Assembly (NCBI GenBank): GCA_007134775.1
Contig: SLKC01000172.1
Location: 1-53,104, forward strand
DNA: 53,104 nt
Direction of reading: 5' to 3'
DNA from: Ectothiorhodospiraceae bacterium
GTDB taxonomy: Bacteria > Pseudomonadota > Gammaproteobacteria > XJ16 > Halofilaceae
Shown: one piece after another, positions 24,899-41,137 of the stretch
Layout of the letters: each line of letters starts with the position of its first letter
Position numbering within the stretch: the first letter of the stretch is position 1
Program-made: the position numbers and the translations under genes
Notes under the pieces: generated by a model
The model's database searches: none
The model's input: the letters and a program-made list of their open reading frames with translations, nothing else
What the model was told of the DNA's origin: nothing

Positions 24899-25534
24899 TC
24901 AGGTGTTGGTCTTGTGCGGATATTCGCACAGATCGGCGATCCGGCAGGAATCGCATTGCGGCCGCCGCGCCAGGCAGGTATAGCGGCCGTGGAGAATGAG
25001 CCAGTGGTGGGCGTGGCGCAGGTACGGCTGCGGGATCACCGCGAGCAGGCCGTCCTCGACTGCGCGCACGTTCTTGCCCGGCGCCATCCCGGTGCGGTTG
25101 GCCACACGAAAGATGTGGGTGTCGACCGCAATCGTGGGCTCGCCGAAGGCCGTGTTGAGGATGACGTTCGCCGTCTTGCGACCCACACCGGGCAGGGCCT
25201 CCAACGCCCGGCGCGTGCGCGGGACCTCGCCGCCATGCTGCTCGACCAGGATGCGGCAGGTCGCGATGACGTTCTTTGCCTTGGTGTTGTACAGCCCCAG
25301 CGTGCGGATGCACTCCGCCACCTCCTCCTCGCCGAGCGCGAGCATCTGCTCGGGGGTGCGCGCCTGCGGGAAGAGCCGCGCCGTCGCCTTGTTGACGCCG
25401 ACATCGGTCGACTGCGCCGAGAGCACGACCGCGATGAGCAGCTCGAACGGGCTGGAGTATTCGAGCTCCGTGGTCGGCTCGGGATCGACCTCGGCGAGCC
25501 GGCGCATGATTTCGCCACAGGTCTCCGGCGTCAT
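24899..25534 (-). CDS. nth: Endonuclease III
   Basis: This 211-residue DNA glycosylase/AP lyase removes oxidised pyrimidines in base excision repair. It shows [14 protein letters not shown], the helix-hairpin-helix [13 protein letters not shown] with the catalytic lysine, the catalytic aspartate in AVDTHIFRV, and the [4Fe-4S] ligands in [17 protein letters not shown] (Cys-x6-Cys-x2-Cys-x5-Cys). The start overlaps the stop of the RnfB-like gene by 4 nt. An nth-rnf association is common in gammaproteobacteria, where nth often closes the rnf/rsx operon. Confidence 0.97.
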
Positions 25535-26187
25535 GACGACGAACCCTCGCGGGCCCGCCGCCGGCGTTCGCGGGCACGTTCGACCGCGGCGGCGATCTCG
25601 GCTTGTCGCGCATCCTTCTGCGGGGTGCCGTCATTGGCGCCAGCTTCCAGTCGCTGGCGCTTGGCCTCGCGGCGGGCCTGGCGCTCGCGCTTTTTGCGCA
25701 CGAGGCGGTCGTTGCGCGCCTCATAGCGGGCGCGGAACTGCGCCGCGCGCTCGCGCAGCGGCGTCGGGTCCGGGTTCGGCGTCAGATCGATGCAGTCCAC
25801 GGGACAGGGCGGGATGCACAGCCCGCAGCCGGTGCACTCAGCGGCAATCACGGTGTGCATGTACTTCGGCGCCCCGACGATGGCGTCGACCGGGCAGGCC
25901 TGGATGCACTTCACGCAACCGATGCACAGCGACTCATCGATGACCGCCACCTGCGGCTGGGTTACCGGTTCGCCGCATTCGGGCGCGATCGGGATGACCT
26001 CGCGGCCGAGCAATCGCGCCAGTGCCGCCACGCCCTCGTCGCCCCCCGGCGGACAGCGGTTGATGTTCGCCTCGCCGCGAGCGATGGCCTCGGCATAGGG
26101 CCGACAGCCGTCATAGCCGCACAGCGTGCACTGCGTCTGCGGCAGCTCGGCGTCGATCTGGTCGGCAAGTCGCTTGGTGGTACTCAA
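25531..26187 (-). CDS. Soluble RnfB/RsxB-like iron-sulfur protein without membrane anchor
   Basis: This 218-residue protein starts [35 protein letters not shown] split as a DUF-type [4Fe-4S] motif (CxxCxxxxC plus the Cys in INRCPPGG), then two ferredoxin motifs ([12 protein letters not shown] and [12 protein letters not shown]). This is the RnfB cluster order, but the hydrophobic N-terminal anchor of true RnfB/RsxB is missing. The last ~75 residues are extremely Arg/Lys/Glu-rich and helical. No rnfA, C, D, G or E gene is adjacent. Electron transfer is certain as a class; the partner is unknown. Its stop overlaps the nth start by 4 nt. Confidence 0.8.
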
Positions 26188-26252: not shown

Positions 26253-26265
26253 GGGCATCAGAACA

Positions 26266-26321
26266 CCTTCACGCAATCGTCACGCCTCTGCCACGGCCGT
26301 TTCATTTCGTGCGAGCACAGT
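26266..26321 (+). promoter_or_regulatory. Tandem PhoB-box array and -10 upstream of the porin
   Basis: Four 7-nt units spaced every 11 bp are visible: CCTTCAC (26266), TCGTCAC (26277), CTGCCAC (26288) and GTTTCAT (26299). They resemble the PhoB half-site CTGTCAY. A -10-like CACAGT lies at 26316-26321, 10 nt after the last unit, the spacing of PhoB-activated promoters that lack a -35. The pstS array has the same layout. Binding by PhoB is inferred. Confidence 0.65.
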
Positions 26322-26369
26322 CTCGCGTGTCGTGTTCACTGTTCTTCCACACGCAGGGGTAGCAACACA

Positions 26370-27404
26370 ATGAGAGTACTTGCGAAGCATTCCGTCCTTT
26401 CCACGGCGCTGATCGGGGCCCTGGCCGCCACCTCGGGTGTGGCCAGCGCCGATGTTTCGATCTATGGCCGTGCACACATCTCGGTCGATCATCTCGACAA
26501 TGGTGTGGACAGCGCCAACAATCTGTCGAGCAACTCCAGCCGCATCGGCTTCAGGGCGTCGACGGATGTGCTCGATAACCTCACAGCGATGGCGCAGATC
26601 GAGCAACAGGTCAACTTCGACACCAATGGCACGAGCTTCGCCACGCGAGATACCTTTGCCGGTGTCGAGGGTGACTTCGGCATGATCCGCGCGGGCAAGT
26701 TCGATACGCCGCTCAAGCGCGTGCGCTCGGCCGTGGATCTCTTCGGCGACCAGGTCGGTGATGCGCGCAACATGGTGCGCAGTCGCACCGGCGCGCCGGG
26801 TGCGTCCAGCCTCGACGAACGCTATCCGAACAGCCTCCACTACCAGTCGCCGCGGTTCGGTCCGGTCGAACTGAACCTGCAGTACGCGACGAATACCACG
26901 GGCTCCAGCGCGGATCTGGAGGATGACGAGGACGGGCTGAGCGCGTCCGCGATCTTCCGCCAGGATGATCTCTATCTCGTGCTCGCGCATGAGACCAAGG
27001 GTGAGGACGTCGGCGACCGCTCGGCCACGCGCCTGGGTGCCTACTACGATCTGGCTGCTCTGCGTCTGACGGGTTTCTACCAGGCGGTGAGTGAGGATGG
27101 GGATGGTTTCGAGGATAACGATGCCTTCGGTGCTGGTGCCCGCTACCGCATCGGCAAGAATGACCTCAAGGCGCAGTACTATGCCTTCAGTTCCGATGCC
27201 GATGATGCCGATGCCAGTATGATCGCCGTCGGCGTGGATCATCACATATCGAGTGACCTGCGCTTCTACGCCGTCTACGGCCAGACCAGCAACGATGATA
27301 ACGCCGCCTTCGTGCCCTATCGCGAGGCGCGCTCGGCCGGCACGCCGCGCGTCGCAGGTGAGGATGCGAGTGCCCTCTCGATCGGCATGCGCTACGACTT
27401 CTAG
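26370..27404 (+). CDS. Gram-negative general-type porin, probably PhoB-induced
   Basis: This 344-residue protein has a signal peptide (VLSTALIGALAATSGVASA) and then DVSIYGRAHISVDHLD, SSRIGFRASTDVLDNL, FAGVEGDFGMIRAGKFDTPLK and a C-terminal SIGMRYDF ending in Phe. This is the standard OmpC/Porin_4 layout of a 16-strand trimeric barrel. The protein is rich in Asp, as in halophilic envelope proteins. The 11-bp-periodic Pho-box array upstream (26266-26305) suggests induction by phosphate starvation, functionally like PhoE or OprP; sequence alone does not show anion selectivity. A strong terminator follows. Confidence 0.9.
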   Translation: MRVLAKHSVLSTALIGALAATSGVASADVSIYGRAHISVDHLDNGVDSANNLSSNSSRIGFRASTDVLDNLTAMAQIEQQVNFDTNGTSFATRDTFAGVEGDFGMIRAGKFDTPLKRVRSAVDLFGDQVGDARNMVRSRTGAPGASSLDERYPNSLHYQSPRFGPVELNLQYATNTTGSSADLEDDEDGLSASAIFRQDDLYLVLAHETKGEDVGDRSATRLGAYYDLAALRLTGFYQAVSEDGDGFEDNDAFGAGARYRIGKNDLKAQYYAFSSDADDADASMIAVGVDHHISSDLRFYAVYGQTSNDDNAAFVPYREARSAGTPRVAGEDASALSIGMRYDF

Positions 27405-27448: not shown

Positions 27449-27485
27449 GCGGGACCGGGGAACTCAACGGTCCCGCTTCTTTATT
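27449..27485 (+). terminator. Intrinsic terminator of the porin gene
   Basis: GCGGGACC (27449-27456) and GGTCCCGC (27469-27476) form a perfect 8-bp stem around a 12-nt loop, followed by TTCTTTATT. It starts 45 nt after the porin stop and just before the 3' end of convergent metG. Confidence 0.88.
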
Positions 27486-31282: not shown

Positions 31283-31338
31283 CCGTCATCGAAACGTCAC
31301 ATGGTCTTCACGCTGCTGTCAGCCCTCGCGCGCAGAGT
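31283..31338 (+). promoter_or_regulatory. Tandem PhoB-box array and -10 upstream of pstS
   Basis: Units CCGTCAT (31283), ACGTCAC (31294), TCTTCAC (31305) and CTGTCAG (31316) repeat every 11 bp. CAGAGT (31333-31338) is a -10-like element exactly 10 nt after the last unit. The downstream leader is about 70 nt before the pstS ATG. This is the expected control site of the high-affinity phosphate uptake operon. Confidence 0.78.
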
Positions 31339-31410: not shown

Positions 31411-32370
31411 ATGAAACTCCGCATGACGACGATCGCCACTGCGCTGGCGCTGGCAAGTGGCGCCGCCCTGGCCGAAATCGACGAGAACCTGCCGACCTAC
31501 GAGCGTGTGTCCGGCATCTCGGGCAACCTGTCCAGCCAGGGCTCGGATACGCTGAACAACCTGATGACGCTGTGGGCGGAGGAGTTCAACGACTTCTACC
31601 CCAACGTCAACATCCAGATCGAGGGCGCGGGTTCCTCGACGGCGCCGACCGCGCTCGCCGAGGGCACAGCCAACTTCGGCCCGATGAGCCGCCGGATGCG
31701 CGAGTCCGAGATTCAGGCGTTCGAAGAAGCGCACGGTTATCCGCCGACGCTGGTGCGTACCGCCATCGACACGATCGCCGTGTTCGTCAACCAGGACAAT
31801 CCCATTGAAGGCATGTCCATTCCCGAGGTCGATGCAGTCTTCTCAGAGACTCGGCGCTGCGGCCATCACGAGGACATCACCCGCTGGGGGCAGCTCGGTC
31901 TCGACGGCTCCTGGGAGAATCGCGATTTCACGCTCTACAGCCGTAATGCGGTGTCCGGTACCTACGGCTACTTCCGTGAGCACGCGCTGTGTGATGGTGA
32001 CTACAAGGATGCCATCAATGAACAGCCGGGTTCGGCGTCCGTGGTCCAGGGCGTGACCGAGTCACTCAACGGCATCGGCTACTCCGGCATCGGTTACAAC
32101 ACTTCCGGGGTACGTGCCATCGCGCTGGGCGAAGGTGATGAACACTTCGAGCCGACGGCCGAGAACGCGGTCTCCGGCGACTACCCGCTGGCGCGCTTCC
32201 TCTACGTCTACGTCAACAAGGATCCGAACGAGGAACTGCCGCCGATCGAGCGCGAATTCCTTCGTCTGGTCCTCTCCGAGCAGGGCCAGGATGTCACCCT
32301 CCGTGACGGTTTCATTCCGCTGCCGGAGAGTGCGGCAAGCCGCGAGCGTGACAACCTGGGTCTGAACTGA
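31411..32370 (+). CDS. pstS: Phosphate ABC transporter, periplasmic phosphate-binding protein
   Basis: This 319-residue protein has a signal peptide (MTTIATALALASGAALA) and no lipobox cysteine, so it is soluble in the periplasm. The phosphate-binding signature elements are ISGNLSSQGSDTLNNLM, EGAGSSTAPTALAEG, NFGPMSRRM and the SRNAVSGTYGYF loop. It is the Pseudomonas-like PstS type, distinct from E. coli PstS. GGGGAGA lies 8 nt before the ATG at 31411. It heads the pst operon under a Pho-box promoter; a strong 11-bp stem-loop follows 22 nt after the stop. Confidence 0.95.
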   Translation: MKLRMTTIATALALASGAALAEIDENLPTYERVSGISGNLSSQGSDTLNNLMTLWAEEFNDFYPNVNIQIEGAGSSTAPTALAEGTANFGPMSRRMRESEIQAFEEAHGYPPTLVRTAIDTIAVFVNQDNPIEGMSIPEVDAVFSETRRCGHHEDITRWGQLGLDGSWENRDFTLYSRNAVSGTYGYFREHALCDGDYKDAINEQPGSASVVQGVTESLNGIGYSGIGYNTSGVRAIALGEGDEHFEPTAENAVSGDYPLARFLYVYVNKDPNEELPPIEREFLRLVLSEQGQDVTLRDGFIPLPESAASRERDNLGLN

Positions 32371-32438: not shown

Positions 32439-32492
32439 CTGTCACGCAAGAATCACCCGCATGTAACGCGACTGTCATCTGGCGGGAATAAT
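32439..32492 (+). promoter_or_regulatory. Second tandem PhoB-box array, upstream of pstC
   Basis: Units CTGTCAC (32439), GAATCAC (32450), ATGTAAC (32461) and CTGTCAT (32472) repeat every 11 bp. A -10 AATAAT (32487-32492; 5/6) lies 8 nt after the last unit. Transcription would start near 32499, about 34 nt before pstC. This implies an independent PhoB-driven promoter for the permease and ATPase genes. Confidence 0.72.
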
Positions 32493-32532: not shown

Positions 32533-34872
32533 ATGGCAAGCATGGATCCCGCAACTGATCCCGCAAACGGCACTTCGGCGCCTGGGCGTTTCATGCCAAC
32601 CGCGGAGCAGCGTCGCCGGTTGCGCAAATGGCGCGCCGTCAAGGACTGGGCCAGCAAGGGAACGATCGCGACTTTCGGCATCGCAGTGATCGGCACGCTG
32701 GTGCTGATGTTCGTCTACCTCTTCTCGGAGACCGTGCCCATCTTCGGCAGTGCCAGCATGGAGCCGGTCACCGGCTATGAGGCACCAGGTGGTGGCAACA
32801 CGGTTCACACCGCGATGGAGCGCTATCGCGAGGTGGCCGTTCGTTTCACCGAGGAGGCGGAGGCCATCTTCTTCGATCCGAACGACGGCAGCATCATCAA
32901 CCGCGAAGCCCTGGAGCGGACCGAGGGATCGCAGGTCACCAGTTACGCCACCGGCGAGGCCCGCAGTCGCTTGATCGGGTATGGGCTCGACGATGGCCGT
33001 GCCATATTCGCCCGCCATGATTACGACATTACGTACCCCGGTGGGCAGCGCACGATCACTCCCAGAATCTCCTACGTGGCGGATACGCCCGAGCCGCTGG
33101 AAGTCTTTGCCGCGGATGAATACCGCCTCGACGCCATCGGTGTCCAGCGCGGGCGTCGCGGCACCGCCGTGGTCGGCGCCAATAATGAACGTCAGCAATT
33201 GCGCATCGTGCTGTTCGAGGAAGATGAGGATTTCCTCACCGGCGCCGTGACGGTCGAGCGCAAGGTCCACGAGGTGCCCTGGCCGGGTGACGACGTCGAA
33301 GTCACCCAGATCCTGATGGATACGACCATGCGCAATCTGTTTGTCGGCGGTGACGACGGCAGGTTGCACTACTACGACATCGCGCAGATGAACAATCCGC
33401 GACTCATCGCGAGTGAGCGCGCCATCGATCAACAGGCGGCCGAGGATGCCGGCGAGCAGGCCACGGTAACGGCACTGGACTTTCTGCTCGGCGCGCAGTC
33501 GCTGATCAGTGGTGGTTCCGATGGCTCCGTCGCCCAGTGGTTCCTGACCCAGGGCGACGATGGCAGCCGACGTCTGACCCGAATTCGCGAATTCGACGGC
33601 CATGAGGCACCCGTGACCTCCATCGGCCCCGAGCATGCCCGCAAGGGCTTCGCCACCGCCGCGGCGGACGGCACCGTCAAACTGCACTATGCCACCTCCC
33701 ACCGGACGCTAGCGCACGTCGACCTCGGCGACGACATCGCGATCGACTCCGTCTCCCTGGCGCCACGTCACGACGGCCTGATGATCGTCGGCGAGGATGG
33801 CACGTTCCGCTATCTCGATGTCGACAACCCCCATCCCGAGGTTTCCTTCAGCGCCCTGTGGCAGAAAGTCATGTATGAGGGGCGCAACAACCCGGACTAC
33901 GTATGGCAATCGTCGTCCGCCACGCAGGAGTTCGAACCCAAGTTCTCGATGGTGCCGCTGACGATCGGCACGTTGAAGGGGGCGTTCTACGCCATGCTCT
34001 TTGCCATCCCGGTGGCCGTGCTGGCGGCGATCTACTCCGCCTATTTCATGTCCTCGCGCATGCGCACCCTGACCAAGCCGACCATCGAGATCATGGAAGC
34101 GCTGCCGACGGTCATCCTCGGTTTCCTGGCCGGGCTCTGGGCCGCACCCTTCTTCGAGCGCAACCTGCCGGCGGTCTTCAGCATCCTGATTCTTCTGCCC
34201 CTCGCGTTCGTGGCCATGGCCTGGATCTGGTCACGGTGGGTGCCGTCGAGTTGGCGCCAGCGGATCCCGGGGGGCTGGGAGGCAGCGATCCTCGTGCCGG
34301 TTGTCCTGCTTGTAGGCTGGTTCGCCGTAACCATGAGTCCCTACATCGAGCTTGCCCTGTTCGATGGTGACATGCGCCAGTGGTTGACCGAGCAGGGCAT
34401 CAACTATGACCAGCGCAACGCGCTTGTGGTCGGCATGGCCATGGGCTTCGCCGTGATCCCGACCATCTACTCGATCTCCGAGGATGCCATCTTCAACGTG
34501 CCCAAGCACCTGACCCAGGGGGCGCTGGCGTGCGGTGCCACCGCCTGGCAGGCAATGGCCACCGTTGTGCTGCTCACAGCCAGCCCGGGTATTTTCTCGG
34601 CGGTGATGATCGGCTTCGGGCGCGCGGTTGGCGAGACCATGATCGTGCTCATGGCGACCGGCAACAGCCCGGTCACCAACTTCAACATCTTCGAGGGCAT
34701 GCGCACGCTCTCGGCGAACATTGCCGTGGAGATGCCGGAAGCCGCCGTCGGTGGCACCCACTTCCGGCTGCTCTTTTTCGCCGCGCTTTTCCTGTTCCTG
34801 CTCACTTTCGTGCTCAACACGCTGGCGGAGATCGTGCGCCACCGTCTGCGCCGCAAGTACAGCAGTCTGTAA
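32533..34872 (+). CDS. pstC: Phosphate ABC transporter permease PstC with large extracytoplasmic insertion
   Basis: At 779 residues this is more than twice the E. coli PstC length (319). TM1 lies at about 45-66, followed by ~410 extracytoplasmic residues (about 67-476) with WD40-like repeats (LISGGSDGSVAQWF near 325; FDGHEAPVTSIGP near 355; FATAAADGTVKLHYA). The permease domain begins near 477 (TIGTLKGAFYAMLFAIPVAVLAAIYSAY) with the ABC-coupling loop LACGATAWQAMATVVL and GFGRAVGETMIVLMATG. Enlarged PstC proteins are known in Pseudomonas and relatives. It pairs with PstA and PstB downstream. Confidence 0.93.
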   Translation: MASMDPATDPANGTSAPGRFMPTAEQRRRLRKWRAVKDWASKGTIATFGIAVIGTLVLMFVYLFSETVPIFGSASMEPVTGYEAPGGGNTVHTAMERYREVAVRFTEEAEAIFFDPNDGSIINREALERTEGSQVTSYATGEARSRLIGYGLDDGRAIFARHDYDITYPGGQRTITPRISYVADTPEPLEVFAADEYRLDAIGVQRGRRGTAVVGANNERQQLRIVLFEEDEDFLTGAVTVERKVHEVPWPGDDVEVTQILMDTTMRNLFVGGDDGRLHYYDIAQMNNPRLIASERAIDQQAAEDAGEQATVTALDFLLGAQSLISGGSDGSVAQWFLTQGDDGSRRLTRIREFDGHEAPVTSIGPEHARKGFATAAADGTVKLHYATSHRTLAHVDLGDDIAIDSVSLAPRHDGLMIVGEDGTFRYLDVDNPHPEVSFSALWQKVMYEGRNNPDYVWQSSSATQEFEPKFSMVPLTIGTLKGAFYAMLFAIPVAVLAAIYSAYFMSSRMRTLTKPTIEIMEALPTVILGFLAGLWAAPFFERNLPAVFSILILLPLAFVAMAWIWSRWVPSSWRQRIPGGWEAAILVPVVLLVGWFAVTMSPYIELALFDGDMRQWLTEQGINYDQRNALVVGMAMGFAVIPTIYSISEDAIFNVPKHLTQGALACGATAWQAMATVVLLTASPGIFSAVMIGFGRAVGETMIVLMATGNSPVTNFNIFEGMRTLSANIAVEMPEAAVGGTHFRLLFFAALFLFLLTFVLNTLAEIVRHRLRRKYSSL

Positions 34873-34903
34873 CCCCAGATTGTAACCCCGGGATCCGAGT
34901 CTG

Positions 34904-36568
34904 ATGCGTGATTGGTTCAAACAGGGAACACCCTGGATCTGGCTCAACGCCGGGGCCGTGGCACTGTCGCTGGTCATGGTGATCGGCCTGGTCGGGCACA
35001 TCGCCTTCAACGGCCTGCAGCACTTCTGGCCGCGTGATCTGGTGGCGTTCGAATACTCGGAGCCCGATCGCGATCCCGTGCAGGTTCTGGGTGAGGTGGA
35101 CCGCACCGAAAGCCTGACAGGCCGGGCTGCGGCCGAGCGCGGTTTCAGGCTGGAAACCGAGGACGAGCTGGTAACCCGTCATCGCATCAAGCGCGGCAAC
35201 CGCGATGTCACGGATCGCGATTTCGTCTGGTACCTCGAGCAGCATATGGGGGCGTGGCATTACCCCGAGGATGCGGTCCGCCTGGAACGTCGGCAATGGG
35301 GTGACTTCTACGGCTTTCTCGACGAGGTGCGAGTCGATGGCGAAGTCGTCGCTGAAGGCGAAGCCGCGTGGGATCGATTCGAGGAGCTGTTTGCCGAGAA
35401 TCGGCCGCGGATTCAGGAGATCGGCCGTATCGAGCGCATCGAGATCGGCAACGTCAATGCCGAACTCGAGGAGGTGCGGCTTGCGCAGCGTCGGCTTGCG
35501 GCCGACGAGACCATCACGCAGGAGGCACGCACCGAACGCGAGGCGGCACTGCAAATCCAGCGTGACGAACTGGAAGAGCAATACGCGGAACTCGAGGATC
35601 GCCGCAATGAACTCCTGGAGCGGATTGCCCGCTATCAGGTGGTGCTGTCGACCATCGAGGGCCACGAAGTAACCCACGGCATGGGCGATATCGTCAAGCC
35701 GAGCCGCCCGAATCAAATGAGCGTGGTGGACAAGTCGATCTTCTATGTCGGCGAGTTCTGGGACTTCGTCTCCGGTTATCCGCGCGAGGCCAATACCGAG
35801 GGCGGCATTCTGCCGGCCATTTTCGGCACCGTGCTGATGACCCTGATCATGGCCGTTTTTGTCACGCCGTTCGGCGTGCTTGCGGCCATCTATTTGAGTG
35901 AATATGCGAAGCAGGGGCCGCTCGTGCGGATGATCCGGATCTCGGTGAATAATCTGGCGGGGGTGCCATCGATTGTCTTCGGCGTCTTCGGCCTCGGCTT
36001 CTTCGTCTACTTGCTGGGCGGAGCGATCGATGAGCTCTTCTTCGCCGAACGCCTGCCCGCGCCCACGCTGGGCAAGGGTGCCGTGTTGTGGGCTTCGCTC
36101 ACGCTGGCGCTGTTGACGCTACCGGTGGTCATCGTGTCGACCGAGGAGGGACTGTCACGCATCCCCGGCTCGATTCGCCACGGCTCGCTCGCCCTGGGTG
36201 CGACCAAGGCGGAAATGCTCTGGCGCACGGTGTTGCCACTGGCCACGCCGGCGATGATCACCGGGCTGATTCTCGCCGTCGCGCGCGCGGCTGGTGAGGT
36301 GGCACCACTGATGCTGGTGGGGGTGGTCAAGCTAGCGCCGCAGCTGCCGATTGACGGCAATTTCCCCTTCATCCATGTGGATCGCAGTTTCATGCATCTG
36401 GGGTTCCATATCTACGACGTGGGCTTCCAGAGCCCGAATGTGGAGGCCGGACGACCGCTGGTATATGCGACGGCACTGATCCTGGTGATGGTGATCATTG
36501 TGCTCAACCTGACCGCGGTGGCCATTCGCAACCGCCTGCGCGAAAAATATCGCGCGGAGAGTGATTGA
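34904..36568 (+). CDS. pstA: Phosphate ABC transporter permease PstA with coiled-coil insertion
   Basis: This 554-residue permease is about 260 residues longer than E. coli PstA. TM1 lies at 12-36, followed by a periplasmic region with a highly charged coiled coil at about 155-250 (repeated Glu/Arg/Leu, e.g. RDELEEQYAELEDRRNELL). The transport domain starts near 302 (LPAIFGTVLMTLIMAVFVTPFGV) and has the coupling motif LALGATKAEMLWRTVLP and AVARAAGEVAPLM. PstC has its own insertion, so the two may interact outside the membrane. The ATG lies 31 nt after pstC. Confidence 0.93.
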   Translation: MRDWFKQGTPWIWLNAGAVALSLVMVIGLVGHIAFNGLQHFWPRDLVAFEYSEPDRDPVQVLGEVDRTESLTGRAAAERGFRLETEDELVTRHRIKRGNRDVTDRDFVWYLEQHMGAWHYPEDAVRLERRQWGDFYGFLDEVRVDGEVVAEGEAAWDRFEELFAENRPRIQEIGRIERIEIGNVNAELEEVRLAQRRLAADETITQEARTEREAALQIQRDELEEQYAELEDRRNELLERIARYQVVLSTIEGHEVTHGMGDIVKPSRPNQMSVVDKSIFYVGEFWDFVSGYPREANTEGGILPAIFGTVLMTLIMAVFVTPFGVLAAIYLSEYAKQGPLVRMIRISVNNLAGVPSIVFGVFGLGFFVYLLGGAIDELFFAERLPAPTLGKGAVLWASLTLALLTLPVVIVSTEEGLSRIPGSIRHGSLALGATKAEMLWRTVLPLATPAMITGLILAVARAAGEVAPLMLVGVVKLAPQLPIDGNFPFIHVDRSFMHLGFHIYDVGFQSPNVEAGRPLVYATALILVMVIIVLNLTAVAIRNRLREKYRAESD

Positions 36569-36643
36569 ACAATCGCGGACAGCTGTGCCGAGCGAATTGA
36601 TGCAGACATCCAATGGACCGATGACGACTGGGTTGGGAGCGAC

Positions 36644-37492
36644 ATGACGGAGCAACAACAGAATCAGGGCGCATCGCACGGCTTCAATGCCGGTGCGCGC
36701 AAGCAGGGGCCGCACGCTCGTCGTGATATCCGGTCGGAGGATATCGCGATCGAGGTCGATAAACTCAGCCTCTGGTATGGCAATGATCAGGCGCTAAAGG
36801 AAGTCTCGATGCAGATTCCGCGCAAGCGTGTCACGGCGTTCATCGGGCCCTCCGGCTGTGGCAAGTCGACGCTTCTGCGGTGCATGAATCGGATGAACGA
36901 GCTGATCGATACCTGTCGCATCAGCGGTCAGATCCGCCTGGATGGCAATGACATCGACGATCCGGCGATGGATGTGCCGGAACTGCGCCGACGCGTGGGC
37001 ATGGTCTTCCAGAAACCGAATCCGTTCCCCAAGTCGATTTACGAGAATGTCGCCTATGGTCTGCGTTTGCAGGGTGTCAGGAAGCGCTCGATCCTGGATG
37101 AGGTGGTCGAGAAGTCACTCCGGCGCGCGGCGCTCTGGGACGAGGTCAAGGATCGTCTGAACACGAACGCCTTCGGGCTCTCCGGTGGCCAGCAGCAGCG
37201 CCTGGTGATTGCGCGCGCGATCGCGATCGAGCCGGAAGTGCTGCTGCTTGATGAACCGGCTTCGGCGCTCGACCCGCTGGCGACGCTGAAGATCGAGGAG
37301 CTGATGTTCGAGCTCAAGGAGTACTACACCATCGTGATTGTCACCCACAACATGCAGCAGGCCGCGCGCGTATCCGACTACACGGCGTACATGTACCTTG
37401 GTGAAATGATTGAGTTCAACGATACCGATACCCTGTTCACCAATGCCGCGCGCAAGGAAACGGAAGACTACATCACGGGGCGTCATGGCTGA
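36644..37492 (+). CDS. pstB: Phosphate ABC transporter ATP-binding protein
   Basis: This 282-residue ATPase powers phosphate import. Walker A is GPSGCGKST, the Q-loop is in [20 protein letters not shown], the signature is [14 protein letters not shown], Walker B is [13 protein letters not shown] and the switch histidine is in [14 protein letters not shown]. The N-terminal ~35 residues are polar and extra relative to E. coli PstB. GGGAG precedes the ATG by 5 nt. Its 3' end overlaps the start of the Yip1-like gene by 8 nt, so that gene is translated with it. Confidence 0.97.
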
Positions 37493-38138
37493 GCGTCTCC
37501 ACAATCACACGACGCACGCCGGGGGTGCCGCGCCAACTTGGTGCTGGCGCGCGGTGCGGGGTGTGTTCACATGCCCGCGCGCGACCTTGCGCGAGTGGCA
37601 TGCGCGTGACCCGGAGCCGCGGCAGCTGCTCGTCTGGTTCACCCTCCCGATGGTGATTGCCAGCGTCATGCTGGCCGGCTGGGCCAATGAAGCCATCCCC
37701 ACCGGATTCCCGCCGGAAACCCGGCCCGACCCGATCGCCTTCGGGATTTACAGTGGCCTGACGCAGATGGTGGGGTTGCTGGCCCTTGCTGCCTGCGCAC
37801 ACTTCCTGTGCGATCTGTTCCAGGGGCGATCGGATTTTCGTCGTGGCCTGGCCGCCGTATCCGTGGCACTGGTGCCTGCGTGGGTCGGCAATGTCCTGGC
37901 GGCGCTGCCCTGGCCCTACGGCGCGCACCTCGCGCTCGCCGGCATTGTGTACAGTCTGGTGCTGCTGTTCGCGGCCTTCGCGGTCATCCTGGAGATTCGC
38001 AAGGGACAGCGGATCGCGCATTTTCTGCCGACACTGGCCGGCGCACTCTTGATTACCTTTGCCTTCGCCTGGCAGGCGGTCAGCCTGATTCCGGGGGCGG
38101 CGCCAGCGGTGCGGCTGGGAACGACATGGCTGATCTGA
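37485..38138 (+). CDS. Yip1-family integral membrane protein in the pst operon
   Basis: This 217-residue protein has about five membrane helices (near 52-72, 87-110, 126-146, 150-176, 185-205) after a polar N-terminus. The segments [26 protein letters not shown] and [30 protein letters not shown] fit the Yip1/DUF1282 domain of unknown function. GGGG lies 4 nt before the ATG at 37485, which overlaps the pstB end by 8 nt. The E. coli operon has phoU at this place; here phoU is after phoR. The location argues for a role in phosphate uptake or signalling, but no activity can be assigned. Confidence 0.72.
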
Positions 38139-38152
38139 CGGGGCACGCCGTA

Positions 38153-38208
38153 TGGTCATGGTATTGTCATTGCCGTGACAGATTGGGGTCATCCCGGCGC
38201 GATCTAAT
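38153..38208 (+). promoter_or_regulatory. Tandem PhoB-box array and -10 upstream of phoB
   Basis: Units TGGTCAT (38153), TTGTCAT (38164), GTGACAG (38175) and GGGTCAT (38186) repeat every 11 bp. TCTAAT (38203-38208; 5/6) lies 10 nt after the last unit. This fits PhoB autoactivation of phoB-phoR-phoU. Confidence 0.74.
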
Positions 38209-38235: not shown

Positions 38236-38931
38236 ATGATGCAGGCGACGATTCTGCTGGTCGAAGATGAGCCGGAAGTCCGCGAGATGGTCAGCCGAAC
38301 GCTGTCGCGCGAGGGGTTCGATATGGTGACGGCCGCTGATGCGGCTGAAGGTTATCAGAGGCTGTCGGAAAAGGTACCCGACCTGATGCTGGTGGACTGG
38401 ATGCTGCCGAGTTCGAGCGGTCTCGACTTCGTTAAGCGCTGCAAAAGAGACGAGTTCACGCGCGATGTGCCGGTCATCATGCTCACTGCACGCGCAGAGG
38501 AGACCGATCGCCTCCAGGGGTTCGAGACGGGTGCCGACGATTACGTGACCAAACCGTTCTCACCGCGAGAACTCGCCGCTCGGATCCGCGCGGTGCTGCG
38601 TCGCACGACCGGGCAGGACAGCGAGGGCATCTTCACTGCCGGCAGGATGGAGCTCAACGCCATTTCCCACCGCCTGTACATTGATGGTGAAGCCGTGGAC
38701 ATCGGCCCGACTGAGTTCCGCCTGCTGCGGTTCTTCATGGCCCATCCCGAGCGCGTCTACAGCCGTGCCCAGCTACTCGATCATGTCTGGAGTCGCGACG
38801 TGTATGTCGAGGAGCGAACGGTCGATGTCCATGTGCTGCGCCTGCGCAAGCTACTGAAGCCCTGGGGCTGCGACAACTACATCCAGACCGTGCGCGGTGT
38901 CGGTTACCGGTTCTCTGTGGACACAGGATGA
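38236..38931 (+). CDS. phoB: Phosphate regulon response regulator
   Basis: This 231-residue OmpR/PhoB-family regulator has a receiver domain with acidic residues in LVEDEPEV, phospho-acceptor Asp54 (MLVDWMLP), Thr84 and Lys106 (VTKPFSP), and a C-terminal winged helix (IGPTEFRLLRFFMAHPERVYSRAQLLDHVW, TVDVHVLRLRKLLKPWG, TVRGVGYRF). I chose the ATG at 38236, with AGGTG 3 nt upstream; an ATG at 38239 and a GTG at 38230 also exist. phoR overlaps by 4 nt. Four Pho-box arrays in this window are its likely targets. Confidence 0.97.
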   Translation: MMQATILLVEDEPEVREMVSRTLSREGFDMVTAADAAEGYQRLSEKVPDLMLVDWMLPSSSGLDFVKRCKRDEFTRDVPVIMLTARAEETDRLQGFETGADDYVTKPFSPRELAARIRAVLRRTTGQDSEGIFTAGRMELNAISHRLYIDGEAVDIGPTEFRLLRFFMAHPERVYSRAQLLDHVWSRDVYVEERTVDVHVLRLRKLLKPWGCDNYIQTVRGVGYRFSVDTG

Positions 38932-40394
38932 GTAGCCGCGCGTGGTGGGTCGAACTTTGGCGGCTGCTCGGTGTGACGCTGCCGGCGGGTTTGCTCGGTT
39001 TCGCCGTAGGAGCGCCCGGGTGGCTGTTGGCTGCGGCGCTGTTGCTCTTGCTGGGTTGGCATGCTCGGCAGGCCGCGCGACTGTTGCAGTGGTTGCGCGT
39101 CGGCGCGAAAAGTAACAGGGCGCCCCTGCTGGGCGGACTATGGGGTGAATACGTGGAAGACATCGAGCGCCGCCAGGAATGGAGCCGGCAACGCCGCGAT
39201 CGACTTGAGGGGATGCTGGAAAGATTCCAACGCACGGCCGAGGCGCTCCCGGACGGCGCGGTCGTGCTCGGCCCGAACCACGAGATCGAATGGGCCAATC
39301 GCGCCGCGCGCAGACTGCTCGGTATCGACAGCACCGGCGATCAAGGCACCCGTATCCAGAATCTATTGCGCGACCCGCGTGTCTTTTCCTACCTGCATAC
39401 GGAGGACCGCGGGGACGATGACTCGGTAGACATCCCGTCACCGATGAATCCGCGCATCGAACTCAACGTGCGCGTGATTCCTTATGGTGAGGGCCAGCAC
39501 CTGCTTATGGCGCGCGATGTGAGCAATCTGCGGCGCCTGGAGACGGTTCGCCGCGACTTCGTCGCCAATGTGAGTCACGAGCTGCGCACGCCGCTGACCG
39601 TCATCCGTGGCTATGCCGAGTCGTGCACCGACGAAGAACTGCCCGAGTCGGTCCAGGACGGCATCGCCGCAATCAGTCGCCAGGCGGCTCGCATGCAGGC
39701 GATCGTGGAAGATCTGTTGACGCTGTCGCGGCTCGAGCTCGACCCCGTCGATCCGGATGCCGCGGAGTGGGTGGCGGTGGCAGACCTGCTACCGGGCATG
39801 GTGCGTGACGCGCAGAGCCTGTCCGTCGAGCGCGGCCATGAGTTGACCCTGGAAGCCGATGCGGCAATCGGCCTGCGGGCCACGGCCACGGAGTTGAACA
39901 GCGCATTTGGCAATTTGATCAACAATGCGGTCCAGCATACGCCCGCCGGTACGGCGATTCGGGTCGTTTGGGCCCGAGAGCGCGGCGGCGCGGTGCTGCG
40001 AGTGGAGGACGATGGCGAGGGCATTGCGCCCGAGCATTTGCCGCGGATCACCGAACGTTTCTATCGCGCCGACCCGGGACGCTCCCGTGCGAGCGGCGGC
40101 ACCGGCCTGGGCTTGGCACTGGTCAAGCATGCGGTGGCGCGCAATGGCGGCCGCCTGGAGATCGACTCGGAGCCGGGCGAGGGGGCGGTGTTCGCCTGCC
40201 ATTTTCCGTCGGAGCGGGTCATCGATTTCGGCGATTTCGATGCGGAATCCGCACCGGCAGGGGATGGTGCGGTGGCGGATCAGTGCCGTCTGCGAGGTGC
40301 TAGCGCAGAGCAAGGCGCGGACGCGGGCGGGCGTGCCCAAGAACTCGGTAATCAAGAGTCCGGCTCGAACCGCCGGCGGGAGCAAGATCCATGA
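38928..40394 (+). CDS. phoR: Phosphate regulon sensor histidine kinase
   Basis: This 488-residue kinase has two close N-terminal membrane segments (about 10-45), a charged linker, a PAS domain (about 100-200; LPDGAVVLGPNHEIEWANRAARRLLG), the HisKA box VSHELRTPLTVIRGYA (His217) and the ATPase domain with N box FGNLINNAVQHTP, G1 VEDDGEGI and G2 GTGLGLALVKHA. It lacks a periplasmic sensor domain, as PhoR proteins do. About 65 polar residues after the ATPase core form an unusual tail. It overlaps phoB and phoU by 4 nt each. Confidence 0.96.
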   Translation: MSSRAWWVELWRLLGVTLPAGLLGFAVGAPGWLLAAALLLLLGWHARQAARLLQWLRVGAKSNRAPLLGGLWGEYVEDIERRQEWSRQRRDRLEGMLERFQRTAEALPDGAVVLGPNHEIEWANRAARRLLGIDSTGDQGTRIQNLLRDPRVFSYLHTEDRGDDDSVDIPSPMNPRIELNVRVIPYGEGQHLLMARDVSNLRRLETVRRDFVANVSHELRTPLTVIRGYAESCTDEELPESVQDGIAAISRQAARMQAIVEDLLTLSRLELDPVDPDAAEWVAVADLLPGMVRDAQSLSVERGHELTLEADAAIGLRATATELNSAFGNLINNAVQHTPAGTAIRVVWARERGGAVLRVEDDGEGIAPEHLPRITERFYRADPGRSRASGGTGLGLALVKHAVARNGGRLEIDSEPGEGAVFACHFPSERVIDFGDFDAESAPAGDGAVADQCRLRGASAEQGADAGGRAQELGNQESGSNRRREQDP

Positions 40395-41137
40395 CAGAGA
40401 GACAATCGCCTTTCGGGCGCCATATCTCGACCCAGTATGACGAGGAGCTCGAAGCGATCCGTCAGAAGCTGCTGGCAATGGGCGGTTTGGTTGAGAGGCA
40501 GCTGGACGAAGGACTGCAGGCGTTGCTGCGCGGCGATAGTGATCTCGGCGAGGCGATGGTCCGGCGCGACGTCGATGTCAATGCGATGGAAGTGGATATC
40601 GACGAGCAGTGCACGCGGATCATCGCCCGGCGTCAGCCGGCGGCGGGGGATCTGCGCATCATCCTGGGCATGCTCAAGTCGATTACCGATCTTGAACGGG
40701 TCGGCGATGAGGCGTGCAAGCTTGGCAAGGCCGTGATTGAGCCCTCGGTGGAGCCGCCCCTGGACCGCGCCATCGCCCAGGGGGTTCAGCGATTGGGACG
40801 TCATGTGCAGCAGATGCTACATGATGCGCTCGACGCCTTCGCCCGGCTCGACACCGAGGCGGCGCTACGGATTGCGCGCGAGGAGTCCCGCGTGGACGAA
40901 GAGTACGATGCGCTGACACGCCAGTTCGTCACCTACATCATGGAGGATCCCCGCACGATCCAGCGCGTGCTCGGGATGATGTGGTCGGGGCGGGCTCTCG
41001 AGCGGATCGCTGACCATGCCCGCAATCTGTGCGAATATGTCGTCTACGTGGCCGAGGGCCAGGATATCCGGCATCAGAGCCTGGATGCTGCGCGGGCTGC
41101 TCTGGAAGCAGGTAGTCAGGGGGCCAGGGCCGAGTGA
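40391..41137 (+). CDS. phoU: Phosphate signalling protein PhoU
   Basis: This 248-residue all-helical protein consists of two PhoU repeats of three helices. It shows FGRHISTQYDEELEAIRQKLLAMGGLVERQL, EVDIDEQCTRIIARRQPAAGDLR, and ERVGDEACKLG in repeat 1 and ERIADHARNLCEYVVYVAEG in repeat 2; the E/D-x3-D motifs bind metal clusters. PhoU couples Pst transporter state to PhoR and limits phosphate uptake. It starts 4 nt inside phoR. The end converges with a HAD phosphatase gene. Confidence 0.96.
   Translation: MTERQSPFGRHISTQYDEELEAIRQKLLAMGGLVERQLDEGLQALLRGDSDLGEAMVRRDVDVNAMEVDIDEQCTRIIARRQPAAGDLRIILGMLKSITDLERVGDEACKLGKAVIEPSVEPPLDRAIAQGVQRLGRHVQQMLHDALDAFARLDTEAALRIAREESRVDEEYDALTRQFVTYIMEDPRTIQRVLGMMWSGRALERIADHARNLCEYVVYVAEGQDIRHQSLDAARAALEAGSQGARAE

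Follow-up and report, generated by a model that had tools for sequence, protein, structure and literature searches.

A Porin_4 gene near the pst-pho genes of an Ectothiorhodospiraceae bacterium carries a four-unit Pho array and very probably encodes a phosphate-starvation porin

Introduction

Does a porin gene about 5 kb from pstS belong to the Pho regulon, and what would its product admit? The question is raised by a 53,104-nt stretch of DNA (hereafter, the window) from an Ectothiorhodospiraceae bacterium (GenBank assembly GCA_007134775.1, contig SLKC01000172.1), for which an initial annotation had proposed such membership. PhoB binds 11-bp direct repeats in place of a -35 element, and the porins PhoE and OprP are PhoB targets.

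Results

Pho array and promoter of the porin gene

The features around the porin gene are as follows.

26255..26261, + strand: degenerate fifth unit GCATCAG, in the 11-bp register upstream of the porin array
26266..26305, + strand: Pho array of the porin, four 7-bp units with an 11-bp period (starts at 26266, 26277, 26288 and 26299)
26316..26321, + strand: porin -10 hexamer CACAGT, exactly 10 nt past the last array unit
26370..27404, + strand: porin gene, 344 aa, Porin_4, Omp32-type barrel, predicted signal peptide (about residues 1-27), C-terminal Phe
27449..27476, + strand: probable terminator, a 9-bp G+C-rich hairpin followed by TTCTTTATT (folding, z -4.4; segment -24 kcal/mol)

Direct reading of the sequence placed the units CCTTCAC (26266-26272), TCGTCAC (26277-26283), CTGCCAC (26288-26294) and GTTTCAT (26299-26305) and the hexamer 10 nt downstream exactly where they had been annotated, with the gap TTCGTGCGAG (26306-26315) between the last unit and CACAGT and with the porin ATG at 26370, downstream of both. 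The gene therefore has the 11-bp direct repeats of 7-bp units upstream and the fixed spacing from last unit to -10, without a -35, that mark Pho-regulon members. Note that CACAGT is a weak -10 (3/6 positions versus TATAAT) and that the third unit, CTGCCAC, was counted against a Pho reading. A consensus promoter scan found no consensus -35/-10 pair upstream of the porin; its sole promoter-like match (26494-26522) falls within the porin reading frame and was set aside.

Gene neighborhood

The gene order in the window is rnfB-like (-), porin (+), metG (-), apbC (+), pstS, pstC, pstA, pstB, a gene for a Yip1-domain protein, phoB, phoR and phoU. The pst-pho features are listed below.

31283..31322, + strand: Pho array of pstS, with -10 CAGAGT at 31333-31338
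31411..32370, + strand: pstS (TIGR02136 above cut-off)
32439..32478, + strand: Pho array of pstC, with -10 TAATTT
32533..37492, + strand: pstC, pstA and pstB (pstA and pstB above cut-off, pstC just below its own)
38153..38192, + strand: Pho array of phoB, with -10 TCTAAT
38236..41137, + strand: phoB, phoR and phoU (PhoB, TIGR02154, 328.8 bits with a cut-off of 296.2; PhoR, TIGR02966, above cut-off; PhoU, PF01895)

The arrays of pstS, pstC and phoB are identical in geometry to the porin array, with their -10 hexamers 10 nt later, in agreement with the likeness to the pstS array and its -10 that had been pointed out before. A cognate PhoB/PhoR pair is encoded alongside, both proteins scoring above their cut-offs. 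The Yip1-domain membrane protein (37485-38138) is encoded between pstB and the phoB promoter.

The porin is probably transcribed as a single gene, since the strong hairpin at 27449-27476 would end its transcript. A consensus terminator scan flagged nothing after the porin, its loop limit being shorter than the loop of this hairpin.

Specificity of the array in the genome

Two matrices, both excluding the porin array, were used for scoring: one built from E. coli-type units only, and the other from the pstS and pstC arrays. With the E. coli-type matrix, the porin array ranked third of 106,130 four-unit positions in the window, tied with pstS, and with the pst matrix it ranked third of the same 106,130, behind both training arrays. 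A pattern search of the whole 3.06-Mb genome for four TCAY cores spaced 11 nt apart, allowing one mismatch at most, returned only the porin, pstS and pstC arrays. Exactly two mismatches added four matches, two outside the window and the others corresponding to the phoB array and to the porin array shifted by one unit, and a reversed control pattern gave no genome match even at two mismatches. First-order Markov sequence matching the window in composition (30 Mb) contained no copy of the pattern with up to one mismatch, and its positions scoring as high as the porin array numbered 0 for the pst matrix and 2 for the E. coli matrix. The porin array thus ranks at the top together with pstS and pstC, and equal-scoring matches in coding DNA were absent, which is the outcome that the check proposed in the initial annotation called for.

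Other sites were noted in the same genome. A three-unit Pho array (L162:1498-1526; G000:C176:11466) lies shortly upstream of a gene for a Na+/Pi cotransporter (PF02690), which is a probable further member of the Pho regulon. A three-unit TMAY array (L158:1498-1526; G000:C136:7033), which precedes a BCCT betaine-type transporter gene by about 100 nt, is a candidate, perhaps a chance match. No array accompanies the genome's second Porin_4 gene (G000:C180).

Conservation among homologous porins

Genomes of the class (369) and named genomes supplied the homologues, 76 of which were placed in a tree. Of these 76 porins, 21 show a clear Pho array in the upstream 300 nt. The window porin falls into a 10-member group (SH-aLRT 97), eight members of which carry an array that precedes the start codon by 64-100 nt, even though the proteins are just about 40-49% identical to the window porin, indicating that the site is conserved before the relatives of the gene, as in a Pho regulon. 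In a second, separate set of the tree, arrays precede 10 of 14 porins, with two more ambiguous. The Pho label requires 9 changes on the tree versus 18.7 after shuffling, and none of 500 shuffles was as low. The two array-less members of the group, from Alishewanella longhuensis (L031) and Alkalilimnicola AK92 (L032), had no array within 300 nt and no pst-pho cluster in the porin neighborhood; belonging to the group is therefore not enough to imply Pho control.

Twenty porins have clear four-unit arrays. These arrays stop 64-117 nt short of the start codon, and in 16 of the 20 promoters an xAxxxT hexamer stands exactly 10 nt past the last unit; each of the remaining offsets between 0 and 29 has such a hexamer in 0-4 promoters. 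Strict spacing between the pho box and the core promoter is reported to be required in E. coli (PMC10294691), so that the fixed -10 register across the porins matches what PhoB-dependent promoters require. In a separate case, a very strong four-unit array (CTTTCAT TCGTCAC CTGTCAT TTGTCAT, L012:335-374) lies about 1.1 kb ahead of a porin homologue that itself lacks an array.

These data bear on whether the array could have arisen by chance or be a PhoB site without activity. Some PhoB sites in E. coli are not active, and many are transcriptionally inert, though mainly intragenic (PMC10294691). However, the porin array is intergenic and exactly spaced from its -10, its pattern has no match in the 30 Mb of Markov sequence, and it is kept before porins sharing only 40-49% identity, so that chance or inertness is extremely unlikely.

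In several relatives, the porin gene lies inside the pst-pho cluster. The order is phoB-phoR-porin-pstS-pstC-pstA-pstB-phoU in L117, pstC-pstA-pstB-phoU-porin in L119 and L121, and pstC-pstA-pstB-porin-phoB-phoR in Arsukibacterium (L030). Because of these arrangements, the separation of 4-5 kb between porin and pstS in the window looks like a tighter linkage that has loosened.

Regulators of the OmpR family share a common fold and often bind direct repeats. The array might bind another member of this family (e.g., an OmpR or CpxR homologue) instead of PhoB. Nevertheless, the porin site shares its code with the arrays of pstS, pstC and phoB, both in this genome and in relatives, and the relatives have their porin in pst-pho clusters. 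This leaves the alternative very improbable and PhoB the preferred regulator.

Same-genus genomes

No orthologue of the window porin was found in the two other genomes of the genus examined (G001 and G002). Their PhoB is 78% identical to that of the window, and in G001 arrays of the porin-array form occur at pstS, phoB and a porin; the PhoB of the genus is thus predicted to read the same site code as the window arrays. In both genomes, a mismatch-free four-unit array (L135:1498-1537, + strand; L134:1281-1320, - strand), with TAATGT or TAATCT 10 nt later, precedes a different Porin_4 porin, which is about 25% identical to the window porin. Different lineages thus seem to act as the Pho porin among members of a single genus. 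Next to the array-bearing Porin_4 gene of G002 there is a Porin_O_P (PF07396) gene.

The pst loci of the genus differ as well. PstC (779 aa) and PstA (554 aa) of the window (32533-36568) are of a long type common to distant relatives, whereas G001 and G002 have a short-type locus with two tandem pstS genes. The 78% identical PhoB alongside the differing pst type suggests that the transporter genes alone were replaced. Also in G001 and G002, a Pho array with one core mismatch (L147:1501-1540, - strand, and L152) precedes a gene for a calcineurin-like phosphoesterase followed by a glycosyltransferase-like ORF, and we take the two to resemble the PlcP/Agt lipid-remodelling pair.

The array could instead serve the rnfB-like gene (25531-26187, minus strand), which diverges from the porin and shares the 182-bp intergenic region in which the array sits. 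The array is directional, however, with its -10 on the porin side, and in relatives such arrays accompany the porin, whose neighbors are pst-pho genes and not rnfB. Furthermore, in G001 the rnfB-like gene adjoins metG with no porin between them. Control of the rnfB-like gene in place of the porin is thus barely credible, and the porin stands as the target.

Family, fold and charge of the porin

The window porin matches Porin_4 (PF13609) with 168 bits against a cut-off of 27, versus only 52 bits for Porin_1. Its predicted model is a barrel (pLDDT 89) with Omp32 (2fgq, TM 0.83) as the best PDB match, and its sequence ends in RYDF, so that profile, porin barrel and C-terminal Phe are all those of an Omp32-type Porin_4 protein. 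Among solved structures, Omp32 and neisserial PorB are nearest in sequence (E 4e-12; about 24% identity). An identity with OprP/OprO was rejected, as the porin has no PF07396 match and the same profile library recognized such a protein in G002. Orthology to PhoE was likewise rejected on the Porin_1 and Porin_4 scores and on the PDB sequence relatives, which are Omp32 and neisserial PorB and not enterobacterial.

Residues R58, R93 and R151 align with R38, R75 and R133 of Omp32 (R93 with R75 by ungapped reading), which we take to be the eyelet arginines of Omp32. Other positions are characteristic of the Pho groups: position 34 is basic in 100% of both Pho groups versus 38% elsewhere (R in the group of the window porin, K in the second), R119 occurs in 100% of the window's group versus 4%, and R133 in 100% of both Pho groups versus 62%. 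The K+R content of Pho porins is 9.9% versus 7.6% (p 1e-5, a statistic that ignores kinship). Note that the mature porin is acidic (pI 4.5; 28 K+R versus 50 D+E), so that anion selectivity is not obvious from total charge.

The channel might accordingly be PhoB-controlled and yet a general-diffusion porin that replaces the main porin during starvation, with no preference for anions or phosphate. It belongs to a general porin family, it is acidic overall, and the Omp32-type arginines are common also in homologues without arrays (R58 89%, R93 91%, R151 89%). On the other hand, the extra basic positions R34, R119 and R133 mark the Pho groups, Pho porins are richer in K+R, and the closest fold is Omp32, whose other PDB entry is titled anion-selective porin. 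We regard the general-diffusion channel as the less likely option, albeit one of real weight, and, from the Omp32-aligned arginines and the basic residues of the Pho groups, consider an anion preference of the porin fairly likely.

Discussion

The porin is very likely a direct PhoB target and a phosphate-starvation porin. The membership of the Pho regulon proposed for it is supported because the array is specific genome-wide, recurs with its 10-nt spacing before homologues at about 40-49% identity, and accompanies pst-pho synteny. We infer PhoB binding and low-phosphate induction of the gene, and an anion preference of its product, in the following way. When phosphate is scarce, PhoR would phosphorylate PhoB, both being encoded 11-14 kb downstream of the porin. 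PhoB~P would bind head-to-tail on the four repeats at 26266-26305, substitute for the missing -35 and recruit sigma-70 RNA polymerase to the -10 at 26316-26321. The presumed monocistronic transcript would then raise outer-membrane permeability for phosphate, and probably for other small anions, and the phosphate entering through the porin would feed PstS and the PstCAB transporter, driven by the sister arrays.

Porins of this kind are already known (PhoE, VCA1008, OprP). In the part of the literature that was searched, this porin lineage and its location within pst-pho seem to be undescribed, and no paper dealt with Pho regulation of an Omp32-type porin from a pst cluster. A bolder proposal would be that these porins form an undescribed, widespread Omp32-type phosphate porin group that is a genuine part of pst-pho, with R34, R119, R133 and R137 conferring a phosphate preference unlike the arginine ladder of OprP and with the slot refilled by distant lineages even within a genus; we hold this to be doubtful as a whole. 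PhoB control appears to accompany at least two lineages of Porin_4 porins, and the same-genus species add a third. The sequence rule (four 11-bp repeats, 10 nt, xAxxxT) would single out phosphate-starvation porins in a large family usually annotated simply as porin, and it opens the outer-membrane stage of phosphate uptake by these bacteria to direct tests.

The comparison with PhoE and OprP drawn in the initial annotation holds for function and fails for family. Like PhoE of E. coli, which is strongly PhoB-dependent (PMC10294691), the window gene encodes an outer-membrane, trimeric-type porin preceded by PhoB direct repeats. Unlike PhoE, the protein is of the Porin_4/Omp32 type, with enterobacterial porins as weaker fold matches, and its gene is linked to pst-pho in relatives. 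VCA1008, an OmpU paralogue of Vibrio cholerae, is described as a low-phosphate, anion-selective, PhoE-like porin (PMC13157583, PMC3511308); in its low-phosphate role it would resemble the window porin, whose model has OmpU and OmpT folds among its matches. With OprP and OprO (PF07396; phosphate and polyphosphate porins), the window porin shares the presumed role of anion entry in phosphate starvation. Omp32 and PorB are not known to be Pho-regulated. Omp32 of Delftia/Comamonas acidovorans and PorB of Neisseria are closest by sequence and fold, with aligned eyelet arginines, whereas the window porin, at about 24% identity to them, bears a Pho array.
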